Shown here piece by piece: positions 42,426 to 57,300 of a DNA stretch of 64,000 bases; within the stretch, counting starts at the first letter, position 1, and every line of letters begins with the position of its first letter. Source of the stretch: Methanothermobacter sp. (GTDB lineage Archaea; Methanobacteriota; Methanobacteria; Methanobacteriales; Methanothermobacteraceae); NCBI RefSeq assembly GCF_030055425.1, contig NZ_JASFYE010000004.1:33591-97590 (forward strand), given 5' to 3'. A program made the position numbers and the translations under genes. A model generated the notes under the pieces. It made no database searches. It had not been told where the DNA came from and saw only the letters and a list, made by a program, of their open reading frames with translations.

Positions 42426-44203
42426 ATGTTGGGAGTGTCAGTTGATCCAAGTTACGTCAAGAGTGTGGATGATCTTCTAAGGGGAATTGAAAATGGAGAA
42501 TATGCAATCCCGCTCTTCCAGAGGAAGTTTGAGTGGCAACCTCAAATGGTATCTGAACTTATAGTTTCTATATTACAGGATTACTACACGGGCCTTCTTC
42601 TTTTCTGGGAACTGCCCGATGAGTTTTCAATGGGGGAGTGGGATCCTATATGGGGGGCCAGAAAACCTGAGAAGCCATCTATAATGGTTCTTGATGGTCA
42701 GCAGAGATTATCATCCCTATATTATGCCATTTACAGTCCAGAAAAGAAGTTCCCAAATAGGAATACCTATTACCGTTTTTTCATTGATATAGCGAGGTAT
42801 CTTGAGGGTGACTACGAAGAAGCAGTCTACTATGAGTATTCCAGGCGATACATGTCATTGCAGGAGATAAAGGAGAGGAAGGAAACATGGATAGAAAACA
42901 ACAGATTCCCGCTTTCGCTCTTACAGGATAGGAAGTTTCTGAATTCAGAATTCAATGAATGGTTAACTTCATACACAAAAAATTTTGTGGATCCTGAGGA
43001 AATTAAAGCTTTCTTGAAACACGCGATAAAATAGCTAAAATAAGAAACATCCTTGATTACGGTTTTATAACCCATACACTTGGTAAGGAAAGAGAACTGC
43101 CAGATATATGTGAGATATTCGCCAGGATAAATCAGAAGGGAATGAGGCTATCAACATTTGACCTCATGAATGCCTTTCTGTTTCCACGTGGCATTCATCT
43201 GAGAGAAATCTGGGAACAGAATGATAGGCTGGAAATTAAACGGATACACCCAAAAATGGGAGAATATCTCCTTAAAACAGTTTCACTCTACAAACAGGAC
43301 TACTGTTCCTCGAAATATATTTACTATCTTGTCCCAGGACATCAGATAAAAAAGAGGGATGAACAGAAAAAAGTCGCAATAGTAAAAGATAAGGAAGAAT
43401 TCATGGAATTATGGAATAAATCATACAGATATACAGCTAAAGCTGTTGAAAGGATAAAAAATACAGGTAAAAATGATTTTGGCGCGATAAAAGATATATT
43501 TATACCAAACACAACAATGATCCCTGTGATGGCAGCCATTCTCTGGACGTATGATGAACTGGGTACTAATAAGATAAGTGAGAGGAAATTCAATGAGACC
43601 CTTTCCAGATGGTTCTGGTCTGCGGTTATCCTTGAAAGCTACAGCGGATCATCAGACAGTATAATGTCAGAGGATTACAGGGACTTTAAGAAATGGTTTG
43701 ATAAAAAAGACGAATCGGTTATCAGAAGGATAAGAAATATAAGTCCTGAACGGATAGACAAACTGGATTTCAGAAACATAAAGATGGGGTCAGCGCTTTA
43801 TAAAGGCATCATGTGTTTACTTGCGCTGAATGGCGTCAGGGATTTCTTTACAGGAAGAACAATTGATACCGGGACCTACAGGGCTGAGAAGGTACATGAC
43901 CACCACATATTTCCAAAGAACATCAAAAACCTGCCAGAATCATCCCTCTTTAAATCCACGCGTGATTGCATACTCAACAAGACCCTCATTCTGGATGAGA
44001 CAAATGAAAAAATAAATCACAGAAGACCATCGGAATACCTCAGAAAAATAGATCTCGATGAAAGTCAGTTGAGAGAGGTCATGAATACACACTTCATTTC
44101 AGAGAGGGCAATGCAATACCTTCTAGATGATGATTATGATAACTTTATTCTGGAGAGGGAGCGGACGATTAAAGAAAGGCTCAAGGAACTCTTAGGTCTA
44201 TAA
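42426..44203 (+). pseudogene. GmrSD-like DUF262/DUF1524 endonuclease gene split by a one-base frameshift
   Basis: The first part (to about 43010) is a DUF262 domain with LFQRKFEWQ and the DGQQRLSSLYYAIY nucleotide-dependent motif; the second part continues it as RDKIAKIRNILDYGF...INQKGMRLSTFDLMNA and ends in a DUF1524 HNH nuclease with VHDHHIFPKNI and NKTLILDETNEKI. The frames join if one T is added at 43010-43012, restoring 592 residues. This is the domain order of GmrSD, a type IV restriction enzyme that attacks modified phage DNA. Codon use is clearly more AT-rich than the neighbours, suggesting transfer. The 283-base spacer upstream has a TATA-like ATTATACATATAA at about 42386 and no gene. 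Confidence 0.85.
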
Positions 44204-45568: not shown

Positions 45569-45700
45569 TGATGTGATTCAGAATTATCAAGTGGAACCAT
45601 GATGGGTATTGACGACCAGAAAATGGAAAAACTTTGATGTGATTCAGAATTATCAAGTGGAACCATGATGGGTATTGACGACCAGAAAATGGAAAAACTT
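45569..45700 (+). repeat. Perfect 66-bp tandem duplication across the MNT gene start
   Basis: Copies at 45569-45634 and 45635-45700 are identical. Each includes the leader, the ATGATG start and the first 12 codons of the nucleotidyltransferase. In copy 1 the frame ends at a TGA formed at the junction, giving a 12-residue peptide (45599-45637); copy 2 opens into the full gene. A TATA-like CTTATATATG (45561-45570) lies immediately before copy 1. Confidence 0.97.
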
Positions 45701-46093
45701 GTGGAAGTTCTGGAAAAAAGGGATGAGGTCAGCATTGCATACCTCTTTGGCTCCACTGCAAGGGGGGATAAGGGACCCCTCGGGGACTTTGACATCGGTG
45801 TTCTCCTGAAGGAACCCCTGAAGGGATACGATGACCTCAATTTTCAGCTGGAACTCATAGATGAACTTGTATCAGCACTCCGAACAGACAGGGTGGACCT
45901 TGTCATAATGAACCGGGCGCCACTTTCCCTGAATTACAGCATAATCAGGGATGGAATAGTCCTGAAGGACAGTGAGGAGGAGAGGGTGAGGTTCGAGGGA
46001 CGTATCATGTCAGAGTACCTTGATAGAAGGTACCATAACGACAGGCACACCAGACTGGCGCTCAGGATGATGGCAAGTGAGGGTTTGAAGTGA
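45665..46093 (+). CDS. mntA: MNT-domain nucleotidyltransferase antitoxin
   Basis: The 142-residue protein has the minimal nucleotidyltransferase signature GSTARGDKGPLGDFDIGVLL (GSx10DxD) and the third Asp in VDLVIM. In HepT-MntA modules this enzyme AMPylates and silences the HEPN RNase encoded next door. It overlaps hepT by four bases. The first 12 codons and leader are duplicated upstream, so ribosomes starting at the first copy make only a short peptide, which may reduce antitoxin output. Confidence 0.88.
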   Translation: MMGIDDQKMEKLVEVLEKRDEVSIAYLFGSTARGDKGPLGDFDIGVLLKEPLKGYDDLNFQLELIDELVSALRTDRVDLVIMNRAPLSLNYSIIRDGIVLKDSEEERVRFEGRIMSEYLDRRYHNDRHTRLALRMMASEGLK

Positions 46094-46512
46094 AGGATGA
46101 GGTACTATCGAAACTCGAGAAACTCCGGGAGTACCTGGGGATACTCAGGAATTACAGATCACATTCACTTGAGGACCTTAAAAAGGACGTCACCCTCAGG
46201 GGGGCAGTTGAAAGGTACCTTGAGGTTTCCATAGAGTGCTGTCTGGATATCGGTGAGATGATCATATCATGGGAGAGGGCGAGAAAACCTGAGACATACA
46301 GGGAGGTCATAGAGATACTTGGAGAAATAGGGGTTCTTCCAGGGGATTTTGCAGATAAATTTGCACCAGCAGCTGGTTTCAGGAACATACTGGTTCATAT
46401 GTATGCGGAAATAGATGTTGAGAGGGTTTATCTCTACCTTCAACGGGACCTGGAGGATATAGAGAAGTTTGCTGTATTTGTTGCCAGGTATCTGGAGGAA
46501 CTGTCTGATTAA
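46090..46512 (+). CDS. hepT: HepT-type HEPN RNase toxin (DUF86)
   Basis: The 140-residue all-helical protein has the HEPN active-site motif Rx4HxY as RNILVHMY near residue 98-105. Such toxins cleave RNA until tri-AMPylated by the paired MNT enzyme. The GTG start at 46090 is embedded in the mntA stop region and has GAGGG six bases upstream. No mutation of the active-site residues is seen, so the toxin should be functional. Confidence 0.88.
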   Translation: MKDEVLSKLEKLREYLGILRNYRSHSLEDLKKDVTLRGAVERYLEVSIECCLDIGEMIISWERARKPETYREVIEILGEIGVLPGDFADKFAPAAGFRNILVHMYAEIDVERVYLYLQRDLEDIEKFAVFVARYLEELSD

Positions 46513-49347: not shown

Positions 49348-49773
49348 TTATTCTAGGGTCTCAAGGATTTTCCTGATCTTTTCGGTGAATTCATGGAAAT
49401 CCCGGAGGTGTTCCCTGAGGATCCTGAATGTTATACGGTCGTCTATCTTACCATACCTGTGGACCACGATGTTTCTGAATCCCCTCATTGCCTTTACCTT
49501 CCTGAAGGTTTCCTCGTCTATTGTCCCGGCTCCAAGGAGGTTCTCAAGCACATCACCATCTGATCCGGGGACACCGAGTTTCAGGTCGGAGTTGAGGATG
49601 GAACATATGTCAAAGACATTTTCAACAGCAAACTCAAGCCTCCTGTACATTCCATCCCTTACAAGTCCAAGGCCCTGGAACTCCTCAAATGTTTCAGGAA
49701 GGTTATCTTCTATGAGATTCACGCTTTCCTCAATCTCACTTATCTTCGTGAGTATGATGGCCTTTCTTATCAT
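49348..49773 (-). CDS. HepT-type HEPN RNase toxin, second module
   Basis: The 141-residue protein has the HEPN motif as RNIVVHRYG and the DUF86 helical pattern (FAVENVFDICSILNSDLKLG). It follows the MNT gene, with ATG 49773 five bases after GAGGTGA; a GTG at 49782 overlapping the MNT stop is an alternative. It is only distantly like the HepT at 46090, so this is an independent module, not a recent duplicate. Confidence 0.87.
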   Translation of the reverse strand: MIRKAIILTKISEIEESVNLIEDNLPETFEEFQGLGLVRDGMYRRLEFAVENVFDICSILNSDLKLGVPGSDGDVLENLLGAGTIDEETFRKVKAMRGFRNIVVHRYGKIDDRITFRILREHLRDFHEFTEKIRKILETLE

Positions 49774-49778
49774 GATAT

Positions 49779-50168
49779 TCACCTCATGGGGGCCAGGCCG
49801 ATGTAATCATAGAAGCGGTGTTTGAAGTCATCGAACTCCTTAATGGTCTCCCATGCAATGTCATGGAGGAACCCCTCACTGTCACAGTATACGACCTCAC
49901 CCCTTAGTACCTGGATCCTCACATAGAGTGGGAGCTGCTGGAATATCTGGACATCGAATATTTCATCCACCTCACAGAGGACCCTCAGCCTGAAATCCGC
50001 TGCCTCATCAGGGGTTCCATCATAGTACACTGCAAGGTCTATATCAGACCAACCCTCCCCCCTGAGGGCTGAGCCATAGAGTATTATGAACCTGACCCTC
50101 TCAGCGTCCTCGAAACCCATGATCACACGGAGGAACTCATCAATGCGGGTTCTGATAGATTCATCCAT
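49779..50168 (-). CDS. MNT-domain nucleotidyltransferase antitoxin, second module
   Basis: The 129-residue protein has GSALRGEGWSDIDLAVYY as the nucleotidyltransferase signature and VQIFQQLPLYVRIQVLRGEVVY downstream, typical of MntA partners of HepT. ATG 50168 is chosen because the sequence before it is non-conserved; a TATA-like AAGATATATG about 28 bases upstream suggests a leaderless mRNA. The same TATA region can serve the divergent small gene at 50208. Confidence 0.83.
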   Translation of the reverse strand: MDESIRTRIDEFLRVIMGFEDAERVRFIILYGSALRGEGWSDIDLAVYYDGTPDEAADFRLRVLCEVDEIFDVQIFQQLPLYVRIQVLRGEVVYCDSEGFLHDIAWETIKEFDDFKHRFYDYIGLAPMR

Positions 50169-50207
50169 ATGGTTACTATGATCCTCATATATCTTAAATT
50201 GCTGGTC

Positions 50208-50443
50208 ATGTACTTTCACAGCCAGATTAATAATGCTGCTGAAATGATCAGATCCATGTTCAGAGGGCCAGTGAGGCAAAGTGGGAACTCAAATCTACCG
50301 TCCTGAATATCGGTGAGGCTGTCGTGGCTGGACTCATGGCACCGGTACATGCTATGGTGAAGATAGGTGAATTCACAGGCAAGCTGTCTGGTGGAGACCC
50401 GGACGTGGAGTCCATCTGGCGTGAGATGAAGGGTAAAGGATAA
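50208..50443 (+). pseudogene. Possible small gene with a one-base frameshift, function unknown
   Basis: From ATG 50208 the frame gives MYFHSQINNAAEMIRSM and then, one base out of frame near 50257-50262, continues as QRASEAKWELKSTVLNIGEAVVAGLMAPVHAMVKIGEFTGKLSGGDPDVESIWREMKGKG to a TAA at 50441-50443 (written here only as landmarks). The downstream part has good codon character. With one base added the product is 78 residues, with a hydrophobic central helix. No family is recognised, and the gene could instead be an old fragment. Confidence 0.35.
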
Positions 50444-50478
50444 GTATCATCAGGGCCAAGAGAATTACAGTGGTTTCC

Positions 50479-50904
50479 ATGACAGAGGCAGATTTTAAGG
50501 ATTTCTATGATGTGCTGGTTGAGAACCTTGAGTCCTTCAACGGGGAATACGCATCCTTCATAGACCATGGCCCGAAACTCTTCAAGCTCCTCGCGGACTT
50601 TCTGGGCTATGAGCACCTCAAGAGCCAGCTCAAACTCAAAATAAGCGCGGCAATAGCCTACTATGTTGTACCCATGGATGTAATCCCCGAGACGGTCTAC
50701 GGTGCCTACGGGTACATTGACGATATCTTCATAACAGCCTACGTCATAAGGATCCTGGCGGACGTCTATGGCTACGAGTTCCTCTCAGAGTACTGGGAGG
50801 GAGAGGAAGACCTTGAGGAGGTTGTTGAACTCTGCTATGAGAGGTCAAAGGAGGTCCTCAGGGAGAAGACAACCGATGTGCTGGAATATGTGGGTTTGAT
50901 CTGA
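50479..50904 (+). CDS. DUF1232 (YkvA-like) protein
   Basis: The 141-residue protein contains the DUF1232 signature AAIAYYVVPMDVIPE followed by GYIDDIFITAYVIRIL. DUF1232 proteins are small helical, membrane-associated proteins of unknown role. ATG 50479 is used; GTG 50470 is in frame. It converges on the zinc/winged-helix gene, with only a base between the stops. Confidence 0.8.
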   Translation: MTEADFKDFYDVLVENLESFNGEYASFIDHGPKLFKLLADFLGYEHLKSQLKLKISAAIAYYVVPMDVIPETVYGAYGYIDDIFITAYVIRILADVYGYEFLSEYWEGEEDLEEVVELCYERSKEVLREKTTDVLEYVGLI

Positions 50905-52986
50905 TCAGCTGTTTTCCCGGACTCTGTTCTCCCAGTTCATGGCCTCAAGGACCCCAAGGATGTCATCAAGTGATTCCTTCTCTACAGTCAGTTCAATGAG
51001 TAGTTCAAAACACTCATCATTCCTCAGTATCATGCACTTCTTCATTGATGGTAGGAGGTCCCCCAGTTCATTCATGGTATCCATGAGACCATTACCACTC
51101 ACAAGTCCGTTCATCATGAGGTTGAGGCTTTCACCGGTGGGGTTTATGTAGATTATCTCCTTTCTGTGGGTAGTGTCCTCTGAGGTGACAGGTTCTGCTG
51201 TTATTTCTTGTTCTATTCCTGTAACCGGGGTTTCTTCTTGCTTCACAGTCAGTGTGTCCAGGGTTTCTTCAGCACCTGATCCATGGTACCGGAGGTAGAG
51301 CTCCTCAATTTCAGGTTTGTGTTTAAGAATGAATCCCTCGGGGCCCTCCTCAATGAGGTCATGCTCCTGAAGGGTCCAGATCCCGGCATCCAGGGTCCCG
51401 GGCTCATCAAAGTGTTCAGCCAGGTCCTCCCTTCTGAAGGGCCCTTCACCCACGACCTCCCTCATGTCCCTGAATATGTCCCATGCCAGTATCCGGTCAT
51501 AGCATTCCCGGCACTCATCCCGTTTTCCGTCGATTGTACTGTAGAAGCTGGATTTCTTGAGTTTTCTGCCGCATATTGGGCAGGTTCTGATCATATCTGA
51601 TTCTGTAACAAGTTCCCCTTCGCCATAGGCCTCGTGGAAGGCTCTGAGTTCCTCGTCCGGTTTAAGTGTGTAGGTTTCGAAGGCCGGGTTGCTCTCGATG
51701 AGGTCAAAATCCTGCAGCAGCCAGATATGGCCAGTGATCATAACCCTCTCATCCTCATTTTCTATGATGTCGTCAACAGCAAATTCAACGCCTGGTTCAA
51801 CAAGCTTTCTTATCTCAGCGAGGGCATCTGCAGCGCAGCGCCTCCTTGAGCATTCCCTGCACATGGGGGAGGTTCCATCGGATGAATTGAATTCTGTGGC
51901 GGGCTTCACCTCCCCGCACACTGAGCACTCCAGTTCACCCTCCTCAGGGGCCGCAGTGCTTTCGGTCTGGGCTGGCTCATCCTGTACTGATCTGAGCCTT
52001 TTAAGCTCCACGTTCTCTATGATGAACTCCTGGACCTCCTCTTCGGGTTTTAACCTGTAGTTACCTGAGTCCCCGTCCTGCTCAAGGAGGTTGAACTCTT
52101 CGAGTATCCAGATCATGGCTGTGAATTGTGTCCTGTCCACGTCATCCATCCCGGCTGTGTAAACGGCAACGTTAATCTCATCACCGGCTTCAAAAATTGT
52201 GAGGATCCTTTCAAGGGATTCAAGGGCATAGAGTCTCCTTGAGCATTCCCTGCAGATACCCTGGGACCTCTCAGTTTCGGTTTCAAGTTCTTTCCTGCAT
52301 CCAGAACAGAGTTCAAGGCTACTGACGGGTACTTCAGGTAATAAATCTTTTCGCTGATGGGATTCTACCGCTGGAGCTTCTTCATCTATTGGCTGATCCG
52401 TTTCCTCCGTTCTGGTGGGGGGCACGGGTTCATTCTCCAGTATCCCCGTTTTCAGGGCTTCGGGGTTACCATCAGATCCGGCTTCATGGGTCCGGAGGTC
52501 ATCATTCAGGTTTTCAGGATGAGGTTCATCCCTGGCTGAATCATGAGATTCGTTCATGGATTCTTCAGATCTCACTGTGGTCCTGAGAAGTGATTCGGCT
52601 GCAGATTTGAAGCCCAGGTTGAGTTCCATGAAGTCATCGCATTTTTCAGATAACACGTAAAGGGTTCTGAAGCCGTTGAATCCCTGATTCTTTATGAACC
52701 CGTTCCCTTCACTGCTGACATGCTTCTTTATGAATCCCTCCCTTAGGAGAATCCAGAATAGCAAGGAGCCGAGTTCCTCCTCATCCTTAAAGTCATCGAA
52801 GTTGAAGGGTTCCCTTGCCTGAAGTGTTTCAATGGCCTTTAAAATTCGATATTTATCGTAGCATTCCCTGCAGACGCCCAGGTTCTCAGGGCTGCAGTTT
52901 TCACAGGATGAAGAAGATGATTCACTGCCGCAGGACAGGCATAAAAGTTTATCTGATTCTCTACAGCAGAGGACGCAGTTATTCAT
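50905..52986 (-). CDS. Four-module zinc-ribbon / winged-helix protein, unknown function
   Basis: The 693-residue protein repeats one module four times: a Cys4 zinc site (Cys-x2-Cys then CRECSRR or CRECYDR), a helix, and a winged-helix-like segment ending in a W-I-L-x-E/Q-x-D/F-L-I-E motif (FTAMIWILEEFNLLE, ITGHIWLLQDFDLIE, DAGIWTLQEHDLIE). The first module (CLSCG...CENC...CREC) is divergent and followed by a long acidic linker. A separate C-terminal domain of about 90 residues carries YINPTGESLNLMMNGLVSG. It looks like a nucleic-acid-binding scaffold. ATG 52986 follows GAGGGGAG. It is divergent from the EVE-BrxD-BrxHI operon. Confidence 0.75.
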   Translation of the reverse strand: MNNCVLCCRESDKLLCLSCGSESSSSSCENCSPENLGVCRECYDKYRILKAIETLQAREPFNFDDFKDEEELGSLLFWILLREGFIKKHVSSEGNGFIKNQGFNGFRTLYVLSEKCDDFMELNLGFKSAAESLLRTTVRSEESMNESHDSARDEPHPENLNDDLRTHEAGSDGNPEALKTGILENEPVPPTRTEETDQPIDEEAPAVESHQRKDLLPEVPVSSLELCSGCRKELETETERSQGICRECSRRLYALESLERILTIFEAGDEINVAVYTAGMDDVDRTQFTAMIWILEEFNLLEQDGDSGNYRLKPEEEVQEFIIENVELKRLRSVQDEPAQTESTAAPEEGELECSVCGEVKPATEFNSSDGTSPMCRECSRRRCAADALAEIRKLVEPGVEFAVDDIIENEDERVMITGHIWLLQDFDLIESNPAFETYTLKPDEELRAFHEAYGEGELVTESDMIRTCPICGRKLKKSSFYSTIDGKRDECRECYDRILAWDIFRDMREVVGEGPFRREDLAEHFDEPGTLDAGIWTLQEHDLIEEGPEGFILKHKPEIEELYLRYHGSGAEETLDTLTVKQEETPVTGIEQEITAEPVTSEDTTHRKEIIYINPTGESLNLMMNGLVSGNGLMDTMNELGDLLPSMKKCMILRNDECFELLIELTVEKESLDDILGVLEAMNWENRVRENS

Positions 52987-53129
52987 ATGGCATACTCCCC
53001 TCAATACAGTATAATTTAATGTTTTTACAGCTACTTAAATCATTAACATTTACAGGGTTATAAAAAAATTTATCTATCAATTTTTAGAAACATTTAAATG
53101 ACTTTAATGCCATAAAAGGGGGTTTTTAC

Positions 53130-53900
53130 ATAATAAAACAGAAAAGGCTGGTCCCCAGGGGTAAGTCCAGATACTGGCTTCACAGAATAGATGATGATGT
53201 CCTTGAAGATATATCCAAGAACCTCGTGATTGGCTCCGTGAGGAAGAGGGGTAAACTTATAAATGAAATCCGATCAGGTGACAGGATATTCCTCTTCAAG
53301 CCGATCCCCCTCAATGGTCGGAGGACACTCTCATTTGTTGCATACACCATGGTTGAAAGTGTGTACAGTGACCCGGAAACCCTCTATGATTACTATGAAT
53401 CCCCCCGGAAGCTGAAGCTCAAGGGTATAAAGTTCTTCAACCCCCCCATACCATTAGTTAAATTCAAGGATAAACTTGTTTCCTTTGATTCTAAAAAATG
53501 GTCATCAGCAACGAAATCTGAGTACAGAAAGATAGATGAGGCTGATTTCAGGACCATAAGGTCCAGGGCAAAGTTCATAGAGAAATTCCCCGCCTACCTT
53601 GAGGAGGTATCCTTCAGCATGGATGAATTCATTCTGAACTCCATCATGGGCCTCCACAGCATGCTCAGAAAGGCCGATGGCCGGAAGCAGATGGAGATAA
53701 AATCCTTCATAAAGCTCCTTGATGAATTCATCCAGTCCTACGGGATTAACAAATCATATGATGAACTCGAGGAATTCTACTCAATCAACGCCTGGAGGAC
53801 CGGTATAAAACACTACCCTTCACGGGATCCTGAGAGGATAGTAACACTCTACAACAGCAGAGGGGCTGGAAGAGACTTTGGATTGATATCCCTGGAATAG
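53130..53900 (+). CDS. EVE/PUA-like domain protein, first gene of the BrxD-BrxHI operon
   Basis: The coding frame starts well before its first canonical codon (GTG 53226): upstream it encodes KSRYWLHRIDDDVLEDISKN, which together with NEIRSGDRIFLF and the later WSSATKSEYRKIDEADF gives the pattern of EVE/PUA-like modified-base-binding domains (Tyr-Trp start, GD turn). No ATG, GTG or TTG is found upstream; an ATA at 53130, seven bases after AGGGGG, is the best start (256 residues). The C-terminal third is helical. It ends ten bases before brxD. EVE domains often sense modified bases in defence systems; the fold call is moderate. Confidence 0.6.
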   Translation: MIKQKRLVPRGKSRYWLHRIDDDVLEDISKNLVIGSVRKRGKLINEIRSGDRIFLFKPIPLNGRRTLSFVAYTMVESVYSDPETLYDYYESPRKLKLKGIKFFNPPIPLVKFKDKLVSFDSKKWSSATKSEYRKIDEADFRTIRSRAKFIEKFPAYLEEVSFSMDEFILNSIMGLHSMLRKADGRKQMEIKSFIKLLDEFIQSYGINKSYDELEEFYSINAWRTGIKHYPSRDPERIVTLYNSRGAGRDFGLISLE

Positions 53901-53910
53901 GAGGCTTAAT

Positions 53911-55152
53911 ATGAATGCAGAGAGTATCATAAATGCCCTTAAAAATGGCAACGTCCCCCCGGAGGGGGTGGGCGAGATATGTGTCGGGCGTGAAAGGGAA
54001 CTGGAGGAGTTCGACAAGATATTCGGTAAGGTTAAGGATGGGGCCGCGGTAACAAGGTTCCTCAACGGTGAATTCGGGTCGGGGAAGTCCTTTTTCCTGA
54101 AACTTCTTGAGGAGAGGGCCCTTGCAGACAACTTCGTCGTCGCCAAGGTAACACTCAGCAGGGACGTCCCCTTCAACAAGTTCGAGGTCGTCTACAGGAG
54201 CATCGTCGCCTCGCTCCGCTGCAAGACAGGCACATCCCTCGAGCACATAATTGAAAAGTGGACCACACAGCTCCGCATGATGGCCCTAAGGGAAACCACG
54301 GACCCCTACCAGCAGGAGAGGATAGTGATAGACAACATAAACAATGACCTCAAGGAGGTCCGTAAACACGCCACAACCTTCGCTGCTGCAATAGAGAACT
54401 ACTACAAGCTCTCTGCACGGGGTGACCAGGAGACAGCAAAGTATGCAATGGCCTGGCTCAGCGGTGAGAAGAACATACCCTACACCATAAAGAGGCAGTT
54501 CGGTGTCAAGGGTGACATTGACCGGGAAAACGCCTTCAAGTACCTTGAGGCCCTCTCCTCATTCCTCAGGGCACTCAACTACTCAGGGCTCATAATACTC
54601 ATAGACGAGGCAGAGCACATAATGACCCTACACACAAAGAAGCTGAGGGACACAGCCTACGACTACATGAGGTTCATATACGATGAGTGCAGCCTCGGCA
54701 GATTCCACAACACCCTCTTCATATTCGCAGGGACCCCCGAGTTCTTTGAGGACCCCAAGATGGGTGTGCCATCCTACACCGCACTGAATGAGAGGATAGA
54801 GGACGTCCTCAACACGGAATTCAAGGACCTCAGAAAACCCATAATAAGGCTTGACGGCTTCAAGAAGGACAACCTCATGGAGCTGTCAGATCGCCTCATA
54901 AGTATGCACGAGGAGGTCTACGAGTGGGAGGCTAAACCTGTCAGGGAGTCCCTTGAGGGTATAATAGCAAGGCATGAGGCCAACGCGGAACTCACAGGTT
55001 ACATTTCACCGAGAAACTTTGTTAAATCATTCATAAGTGTCCTTGATGTTGTCCAGCAGAACCCTGAACTCCGAAGCGAGGAGGAGATCCTTGACCTCTT
55101 TGAGGAGAAGGAGATGGAGTTTGAGGAGTTCGAGGACGAGGACTGGGTTTAG
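53911..55152 (+). CDS. brxD: BrxD-like ATPase (DUF2791)
   Basis: The 413-residue protein matches the DUF2791 P-loop family, which contains BREX proteins BrxC and BrxD. It has ICVGRERELEEFDKIF at the start, Walker A GEFGSGKS at about 53-60 and Walker B LIDEAEHI (Asp232, Glu233), and an acidic C-terminal tail. In type 2/6 BREX the gene lies with the Lhr-like helicase brxHI, as here (15 bases apart). No methylase, PglZ or BrxC is in the window, so this is a stand-alone BrxD-BrxHI unit. ATG 53911 follows AGGAGGCTTAAT. Confidence 0.85.
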   Translation: MNAESIINALKNGNVPPEGVGEICVGRERELEEFDKIFGKVKDGAAVTRFLNGEFGSGKSFFLKLLEERALADNFVVAKVTLSRDVPFNKFEVVYRSIVASLRCKTGTSLEHIIEKWTTQLRMMALRETTDPYQQERIVIDNINNDLKEVRKHATTFAAAIENYYKLSARGDQETAKYAMAWLSGEKNIPYTIKRQFGVKGDIDRENAFKYLEALSSFLRALNYSGLIILIDEAEHIMTLHTKKLRDTAYDYMRFIYDECSLGRFHNTLFIFAGTPEFFEDPKMGVPSYTALNERIEDVLNTEFKDLRKPIIRLDGFKKDNLMELSDRLISMHEEVYEWEAKPVRESLEGIIARHEANAELTGYISPRNFVKSFISVLDVVQQNPELRSEEEILDLFEEKEMEFEEFEDEDWV

Positions 55153-55167
55153 TCAGGGTGTACTCTG

Positions 55168-57300
55168 ATGTCCTCCGAATCACTCAACCCCCGCCTCAGG
55201 CACTTCCTCGCCAACAGGCTCGGCTGGAGGAGGCTGAGGGACGTGCAGAAATCCGCCCTTGAAGCCATAGGTAGGGGGGAGGACACCCTCATAGTTGCAC
55301 CCACAGCCTCTGGTAAGACCGAGGCCGCCATGATACCCGTCTTCAACTCCATACTCACAGAGGGCCTCCCACCGGTCAGCCTGCTCTATGTCTCACCCCT
55401 CAAGGCACTCATAAATGACATGCACAGCAGACTGGAGTACTGGGGCAACCACTTCAACCTTGAGGTCATGAAGTGGCACGGGGATGTCCCGCCGGACACC
55501 AAGCGGAGGTTCATCAGGAACCCCGCGGACATCCTCCTCATAACACCAGAGTCCCTTGAGGTCATCATGGTGAACAGGAGCCGGGATGAGAGGGAGAGGA
55601 TCTTCAGGAACCTCCGCTACATCATAGTGGATGAGATCCACTACTTCATAGAGTCAGACAGGGGTGTCCAGCTGAACTCCCTCCTGGCAAGGCTTGAGAG
55701 GTACACCGATGTGAGGCCCCAGAGGATAGGGCTCTCTGCAACGGTTGGAAACCCCGAAGATGTCCTTGAGTGGATGAGCCCCTCGGGGGTTGTTGTAAAG
55801 GAGAACTCTGATAGGAGACTCCAGTACAGGATATTCTCTGGTGGAGAGGCGGGGGTCATTGATGTTTTAAGGAGGTTAACCGGCAGGAAGGTCCTCATCT
55901 TCGTCCCATCACGGAGGGAGGCTGAGAAGTACTACAACATCATAAGAAGGTGTCTGGATGTGGACGTCTTCATACACCACTCCTCCCTGAACAGGGAGTC
56001 AAGGGAGGAGGCAGAGGAGAAATTCAAATCCATCTCAGCGGCCTTCATGGTGAGCACCAGTACACTGGAGCTTGGTATAGATGTGGGTGACATCGACGTG
56101 GTGGTGCACCTGCGGAGCCCAACAACCGTGAACCAGTTCCTCCAGAGGACCGGGCGGAGCGGCAGGAGGAGCGGCAACCAGAGGACCATCATATTCCATG
56201 AGGGTGAGGTACTCCTCGCCCTCTCGGTTGTCTCACTGGCACTTTCAGGTAAACTTGAGATGCTCAGGATACCCGGAAGGCCCCTTGACATATACTTCCA
56301 CCAGATCCTGAGCTCGGTGTTTGAGATTGAAAAACCGGGGCCCGCAGAGATATACAGGGGCCTTGGGAGGGCCCATGTGTTCTCTGATATAAGTCAAGGG
56401 GACTTCAGGCACCTACTTGACTTCATGGGTGAGAGTGACTTTATAAGGAAACATGGAAGCTACCTCTACCATGGCTTCAACTTTGAGAAGGTCTTCGGTA
56501 AGATGAACTTCCTTGAGTTCTACTCTGTGTTCTACCCCACCTATGAGTTCACTGTTAAGCACGGAACAAAGACCATAGGAACCCTTGACGCATTCTTCGC
56601 TGTAAAATACCTTGAGGAGGGCAGGGGATTTGTGCTTGGTGGTGAAAACTGGATTGTGAGGGAGATAGACCATGAAAAATTCATAGTTAAGGTTAAGCCC
56701 TGCTCAAGGAATGCCAGTATACCTGACTGGAGTGGTGGCGGTGCCCCGGTGAGCTTTGAGGTTGCAAGGCACGCCTATGACATCCTCCTTGGAAACTTCA
56801 ACCGGGACCTCCTCAGGTGGCTGGATGACGCATCAAGGGAGAGGGTCCTATCTGCGATGGCAAGGGCCTCTGCCGCAGGTTTAACCAGGGATGTTATCCC
56901 TGTGAGTGTCGGTTCTGATGTGGAGATCCACACCTTTGGAGGGGAGAGGGTTAACGGCCTCATCTCAGATATATTCAGAATGGAGCATGATGCATACATG
57001 GTCAGGGATGATGCCTTCGCAGCGCGCTTCAGGGCAAAGGTCGACTATGATGATGTGGCTTCCACTCTGAAGGAGATCCCATCCATCATCTCTGAGGAGG
57101 ACTTCCCCCTCAGGCTCCATGACAGGCTTGACAGGATGGTTAAGAACAAGTTCATAGAGCACCTCCCTGAGGATGTGGCGGCCCATATTAAGTACAGCCT
57201 CCTCTACAGGCCGGATGAGCTCATGGGGCTGCTTGAGGCCAGCAGACCTGTTGAGGTGGAGGGTTTCAGGATTCAGGTTTTTCATGGTTCTGAGAAATAG
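55168..57300 (+). CDS. brxHI: Lhr-like superfamily 2 helicase (BrxHI type)
   Basis: The 710-residue protein is a DExH helicase: Walker A APTASGKT at 44-51, DEIH at 155-158, SAT as GLSATVG, motif Va region TSTLELGIDVGDIDVV and motif VI QRTGRSGRRSG. Lhr-core and C-terminal winged-helix-like regions follow. It is the last gene of the operon after brxD. The partner gene is the main reason to call it BrxHI and not ordinary cellular Lhr. Its product should translocate on single-stranded nucleic acid using ATP. ATG 55195 is an alternative start not supported by a better site. Confidence 0.88.
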   Translation: MSSESLNPRLRHFLANRLGWRRLRDVQKSALEAIGRGEDTLIVAPTASGKTEAAMIPVFNSILTEGLPPVSLLYVSPLKALINDMHSRLEYWGNHFNLEVMKWHGDVPPDTKRRFIRNPADILLITPESLEVIMVNRSRDERERIFRNLRYIIVDEIHYFIESDRGVQLNSLLARLERYTDVRPQRIGLSATVGNPEDVLEWMSPSGVVVKENSDRRLQYRIFSGGEAGVIDVLRRLTGRKVLIFVPSRREAEKYYNIIRRCLDVDVFIHHSSLNRESREEAEEKFKSISAAFMVSTSTLELGIDVGDIDVVVHLRSPTTVNQFLQRTGRSGRRSGNQRTIIFHEGEVLLALSVVSLALSGKLEMLRIPGRPLDIYFHQILSSVFEIEKPGPAEIYRGLGRAHVFSDISQGDFRHLLDFMGESDFIRKHGSYLYHGFNFEKVFGKMNFLEFYSVFYPTYEFTVKHGTKTIGTLDAFFAVKYLEEGRGFVLGGENWIVREIDHEKFIVKVKPCSRNASIPDWSGGGAPVSFEVARHAYDILLGNFNRDLLRWLDDASRERVLSAMARASAAGLTRDVIPVSVGSDVEIHTFGGERVNGLISDIFRMEHDAYMVRDDAFAARFRAKVDYDDVASTLKEIPSIISEEDFPLRLHDRLDRMVKNKFIEHLPEDVAAHIKYSLLYRPDELMGLLEASRPVEVEGFRIQVFHGSEK

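Follow-up and report, generated by a model that had tools for sequence, protein, structure and literature searches.

BrxD, the ATPase that accompanies the helicase BrxHI in some BREX systems, has been proposed to load the helicase, and BREX type 2 has been reported to be absent from archaea (PMC12839542). A corresponding pair, SngB and SngC, is part of Shango, a system whose first gene encodes a TerB protein and for which protection against phages has been shown experimentally (PMC10250203). EVE domains have been described in two other settings. In archaea, they occur with a DUF499 (ORC/Cdc6-like) ATPase, a methylase and a SWI2/SNF2 helicase-nuclease (PMC7641849), in what have been called ‘BREX-related’ systems (PMC12839542), and they are used in modification-dependent restriction, for example in VcaM4I and EVE-McrB (PMC7897488, PMC7641849). 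Here, we describe a Methanothermobacter locus in which genes for a DUF1232 protein, a zinc-ribbon repeat protein, an EVE protein, an ORC/Cdc6-like ATPase and an Lhr-like helicase form a conserved, recurrent unit. It is probably a multi-gene antiviral system of the Methanobacteriales; a role in defence is suggested by the gene context and by analogy with the tested anti-phage activity of Shango. A preliminary description of this DNA had put forward a candidate uncharacterised defence system, and this is still the best reading.

The locus is found on contig 4 of a genome of 1.67 Mb that is 99.8% complete, within a stretch of 64,000 nucleotides that was analysed as a whole (the window), and is made up of the following parts:

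50479-50904, plus strand: DUF1232 protein P0004 (c4), predicted to be all-helical (PF06803, 1.7e-9)
50905-52986, minus strand: zinc-ribbon/winged-helix tandem-repeat protein P0005 (c3), with CxxC...CxxC ribbons followed by winged-helix units
52987-53129, no strand: divergent intergenic region with a promoter-like element and a Shine-Dalgarno sequence (alignment of 7 genomes; duplex energy)
53130-53900, plus strand: EVE-domain protein P0001 with a conserved C-terminal helical extension and a candidate ATA start
53169-53570, plus strand: EVE/YTH-like domain, residues 14-147 of P0001 (PRK00809, 2p5d, fold match)
53911-55152, plus strand: BrxD/SngB-like AAA+ ATPase P0002 with Walker A and B motifs (PF10923, PADLOC)
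55168-57300, plus strand: BrxHI/SngC-like superfamily 2 (Lhr-type) helicase P0003 (PADLOC, DEAD, WH_Lhr)

The unit had been described as the last three genes, separated by 10 and 15 bases. The trio stands, with coordinates and gaps as claimed, but its two partners had been missed, and the genes at 50479-50904 and 50905-52986 belong to it too. These two are convergent and directly abut each other. For the zinc-ribbon gene the open reading frame list gives a TTG start at 53004, and an ATG at 52986 follows a Shine-Dalgarno-like GGGGAG. The five-gene unit encodes no recognisable nuclease or methylase, and no toxin.

For the second and third proteins of the trio, the earlier assignments as a DUF2791 ATPase with intact Walker motifs and a Lhr-type BrxHI helicase are borne out. 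P0002 matches the Pfam family PF10923 (BrxC_BrxD) at 7.1e-105, and both Walker A (GEFGSGKS) and Walker B (LIILIDEAEH) can be read in its sequence, while P0003 matches DEAD (1.2e-38), Helicase_C and the Lhr winged-helix model WH_Lhr (1.3e-7). In PADLOC the two proteins match BrxD (1.6e-81) and BrxHI (2.3e-162), and more weakly the Shango proteins SngB (4.7e-73) and SngC (9.5e-133). Phage records searched with the helicase gave two partial matches only. By PADLOC homology the locus has both a BrxD and a BrxHI, yet the ATPase scores below the NCBIfam BrxD cut-off (270 versus 350) and falls outside the BREX clade. It likewise has an SngB and an SngC, yet these fall outside the Shango clade, and in place of the TerB-domain SngA there is the EVE protein P0001. 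The ATPase tree (31 rows) and the helicase tree (29 rows) each resolve into an EVE-associated, a BREX and a Shango clade; the EVE-associated clade is supported at 98/99 and 100/100, respectively, in trees that contain long branches and take four Shango and five BREX systems as outgroups. Within this small outgroup sample, the ATPase and helicase are a well-supported third lineage beside BREX and Shango. Hence, the BREX comparison first made for this DNA is right about homology and too narrow as the only comparison, given that the same pair also defines Shango and that the trees place it outside both.

The strong profile matches to BrxD/BrxHI and SngB/SngC would also fit a remnant or a member of BREX or Shango, in which the ATPase-helicase pair still works with core genes elsewhere, and one genome (G142) has a pglZ gene at a separate locus on another contig. 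We consider this very unlikely, given that the Methanothermobacter genome itself has no PglZ (PF08665) and that G142 is the exception among 23 genomes searched, the remaining 22 of which carry none. The genome has a single PF10923 gene, that of the trio, and no second BrxC/PglY-type ATPase; it has no methylase at the level of PglX, for which the best match is 24.6 bits to a 958-aa frame on another contig. The absence of pglZ, brxC and pglX and the recurrence of the locus without pglZ both bear out the preliminary description, and a dispersed PglZ elsewhere in the genome was not found. The EVE and DUF1232 families show no profile similarity to four SngA (TerB) proteins, which leaves either of them as a TerB relative unsupported, and the clades are separate. 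As a separate observation, a Deinococcus plasmid (L131:981-8915) carries genes for a leucine-rich-repeat-variant protein, an unknown protein, a BrxD-like ATPase and a helicase together with an HNH gene, and is yet another partner set for the BrxD-like ATPase and helicase pair.

The first protein of the trio is EVE/PUA-like, as had been suggested. P0001 matches the UPF0310/EVE subfamily PRK00809 of NCBIfam over residues 14-147 (4.1e-9), at a score of 36 bits that is far below the cut-off of 139, and has no match to the Pfam EVE model at E<=1. A profile of 20 members of its family finds 2p5d (2.4e-15) and 1wmm (PH1033; 1.1e-6) in the PDB, and an AlphaFold2 model (pLDDT 87.6) has 2p5d and PH1033 as its best folds (Foldseek 4.5e-9; TM approximately 0.77 on the target), with YTH domains next. 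By profile and predicted structure, P0001 has the EVE/YTH fold; it is a divergent EVE relative, recognised by profile and fold only, that does not reach the curated family cut-off. A scan of the genome collection with the single P0001 sequence gave no matches, the family alignment found members in Methanobacteriales and on one Spirochaetales-labelled contig, and a search of plasmid sequences with P0001 gave no match. Two loci (L041 and L042) have an EVE protein with an N-terminal extension, in which a winged-helix profile finds nothing with default filters and gives, with all filters off, a weak match of 3e-4 over 20 sequences with high bias; a winged helix of the zinc-ribbon type is thus only suggested. 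In a further locus (L043:8028-9533) two tandem EVE units lie within one frame.

RNA binding is also known for EVE and YTH relatives. An RNA-directed system, in which the EVE protein reads modified RNA and the helicase remodels invader or host RNA or RNA:DNA hybrids, is nonetheless a distinctly unlikely alternative, as the DNA of invaders is considered to be the target of BREX and Shango, and both winged-helix repeats and an ORC-like ATPase are in keeping with DNA as the substrate. In its favour, YTH domains, the nearest fold beyond the UPF0310 proteins, bind m6A RNA (PMC7641849).

The start of the EVE gene had been placed at 53130. The codon there is ATA, and no ATG, GTG or TTG precedes the conserved core. 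Among 19 EVE loci with a readable 5′ end, 11, including all seven of the genus, lack ATG, GTG and TTG between the preceding in-frame stop and the YW(I/L)H core. GGGGG or a similar sequence lies upstream of ATA or ATT in these loci, mostly at a spacing of approximately 7 bases; in the window, a Shine-Dalgarno GGGGG at 53118-53122 stands 7 bases ahead of ATA 53130, with a duplex energy of approximately -10.3 for an assumed archaeal 16S tail. In several further EVE loci the ribosome site points to ATA or ATT despite an ATG elsewhere, and one (L037) offers a clear ATG that has a ribosome site. At the same loci, ATG, GTG or TTG is available at every start of the ATPase, helicase, DUF1232 and zinc-ribbon genes. 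Upstream of the EVE ATA, single-base indels distinguish the relatives, and downstream of it the protein is conserved; the intergenic region also holds a conserved A-rich/TTTATCTA promoter-like element. A start at GTG 53226 was rejected, as the EVE domain would then lack its first strand and helix. The probable start of the EVE gene is thus ATA or ATT, preceded by a strong ribosome-binding site; the sequence comparison is strong evidence for this, not proof. Such a start would keep the amount of EVE protein low and, if real, would be a conserved non-AUG (AUA/AUU) initiation in an archaeal gene.

The two partners emerged from clustering of the neighbours in 20 trio loci, with a zinc-ribbon-family protein of 477-2207 aa in 16 and a DUF1232 protein of approximately 140 aa in 13. 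The former consists of zinc ribbons and winged helices in tandem array; the winged-helix profile matches this family, one protein near a DUF1232 gene elsewhere and nothing else, and other family members have AP2-like or helix-turn-helix-like repeats. A search with the window’s copy finds the zinc-ribbon protein in 17 of 152 genomes of the phylum, 16 of which are trio genomes, all with the gene at the trio locus, while the sole non-trio genome has its copy on a 4.4 kb contig (Fisher test for co-occurrence with the trio, p approximately 2e-16, which is overstated because the genomes are related). The protein was not found in three loci (L036, L037 and L046), two of which begin near a contig end, and in L039, which lacks the separate helicase, a helicase domain is fused to the zinc-ribbon protein.

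The DUF1232 fold gives nothing significant against the PDB, and our literature search found no paper on DUF1232 in defence and none on DUF2791. Genes for DUF1232 proteins are present in 34 genomes and missing from several trio loci, and away from the trio they lie beside a UvrD-PD(D/E)XK protein or other helicases, which makes DUF1232 a shared accessory that is not specific to the trio system. The second DUF1232 gene of this genome, on contig 5 (G000; L077:8578-11782), stands in tandem with a UvrD helicase-PD(D/E)XK nuclease gene. By size and position the pair recurs in relatives (L078-L081, L083 and L084), and it is possibly a separate two-gene defence module. Two further loci (L087:3058-13455 and L088) have genes for a DUF1232 protein, a large protein that is weakly zinc-ribbon-like, an AAA_23/SMC-like ATPase and a ResIII helicase, possibly another uncharacterised defence set.

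Among the 152 genomes surveyed in the phylum, a clear EVE-family gene and an ATPase gene were each found in 22, and both are intact in 21, where they are adjacent in every case (21 of 21); in G126 the EVE gene runs off the contig end and in G148 the ATPase gene is reduced to its 3′ part. The trio is conserved and adjacent in approximately 20 loci of 7 genera, in counts that come from related genomes and are not independent events; relatives from the same taxonomic order are Methanobrevibacter and similar genera. Comparison with four relatives of the genus gives dN/dS values of approximately 0.03-0.12 for the EVE and ATPase genes and of no more than 0.06 for DUF1232. The helicase has 0.10-0.22 and the zinc-ribbon protein 0.15-0.43; the latter has the highest value of the five in 3 of 4 comparisons and is the fastest-evolving of them. 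Within the genus the locus is intact in 7 of 8 genomes, and in 7 its neighbours include the same MarR and MATE genes, which indicates mostly vertical inheritance, unlike the mobility typical of defence islands. The relative G148 is approximately 99% identical to the window over a shared 5 kb on one side and lacks the counterpart of window positions 49835-54817, with deletion of the DUF1232, zinc-ribbon and EVE genes and the 5′ part of the ATPase gene. In their place is 1.3 kb with DprA-like and phosphoribosyltransferase-like genes (L136:9211-10610), possibly a swap of defence genes.

Stable synteny in the genus and strong purifying selection on the EVE and ATPase genes would suit a housekeeping role in DNA repair or replication restart, in which the EVE protein reads damaged or modified bases and the ORC-like loader places the Lhr-type helicase there, and Lhr-type helicases are known to act in repair. 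We regard this as unlikely, as the locus has a patchy distribution (21 of 152 genomes of the phylum), a near-identical relative manages without it after its deletion and has a DprA/PRTase module instead, the zinc-ribbon partner evolves fast and varies in size, and parts of BREX and Shango are its nearest relatives. As to the one contig labelled Spirochaetales (L107/L151; L151:1-19331), the EVE trio is accompanied there by genes for an HSDR_N protein and a type III restriction-like pair, as well as by a DUF1232-SNF2 pair of the methanogen type, and a binning error is as likely as transfer.

The surroundings of the locus had been called rich in toxin and restriction genes. This comes down to two MNT-HepT toxin-antitoxin pairs to its left (window 45665-46512 and 49348-50279) and a short gene (42426-43034, 202 aa) that has the GmrSD N-terminal domain only and is perhaps a truncated type IV restriction gene; the two large genes between the MNT-HepT pairs are surface-protein-like (pseudomurein-binding, Big, CARDB) and not defence genes. 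GmrSD-type proteins are found near the locus in the window and in two relatives, and a PglX/type IIG-like gene is found near it in L045.

Returning to the antiviral reading, the zinc-ribbon/winged-helix repeat protein would recognise invading DNA by sequence or structure, and the EVE protein may recognise a modified base in it. As had been suggested, EVE might also take the place of self-marking by methylation, in a locus that has no dedicated methylase. The ORC-like ATPase would then load or activate the helicase on the recognised DNA, where unwinding or translocation could block replication of the invader or expose its DNA to host nucleases. We offer tentatively, and with more doubt than confidence, the fuller proposal of a new antiviral type, at present known only from Methanobacteriales and one contig of a Spirochaetales bin. 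In it, a rapidly diversifying array of zinc ribbons and winged helices would act with EVE as the base-reader to guide the ORC-like loader and the Lhr helicase to invading DNA, with neither methylase nor nuclease, and an AUA/AUU start would limit EVE. In methanogens, the system would moreover be one that works without a methylase.

Among known systems, VcaM4I and EVE-McrB restriction likewise use EVE as a probable reader of modified DNA, but the present locus has no nuclease or McrB GTPase. In the archaeal EVE-DUF499 systems, EVE is likewise accompanied by an ORC-like ATPase and a helicase, but with other ATPase and helicase families and with an added methylase and nuclease. BREX types 2 and 6 have the BrxD-BrxHI pair in the same order, whereas PglZ, a second ATPase of the BrxC/PglY type and PglX are missing here. 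Shango likewise consists of three tightly packed genes, in which a variable first gene is followed by the same ATPase and helicase, again in that order, but its first gene is TerB (SngA) and not EVE, its proteins form separate clades, and the present locus is archaeal with additional zinc-ribbon and DUF1232 genes. These comparisons point to the BrxD-BrxHI (SngB-SngC) pair as a portable machine common to several immune systems that differ in their partner for recognition, with PglZ and others serving BREX, TerB serving Shango, and EVE with a zinc-ribbon array serving here. Comparison of the three could reveal the role of the pair itself, for BREX type 2 and Shango alike.
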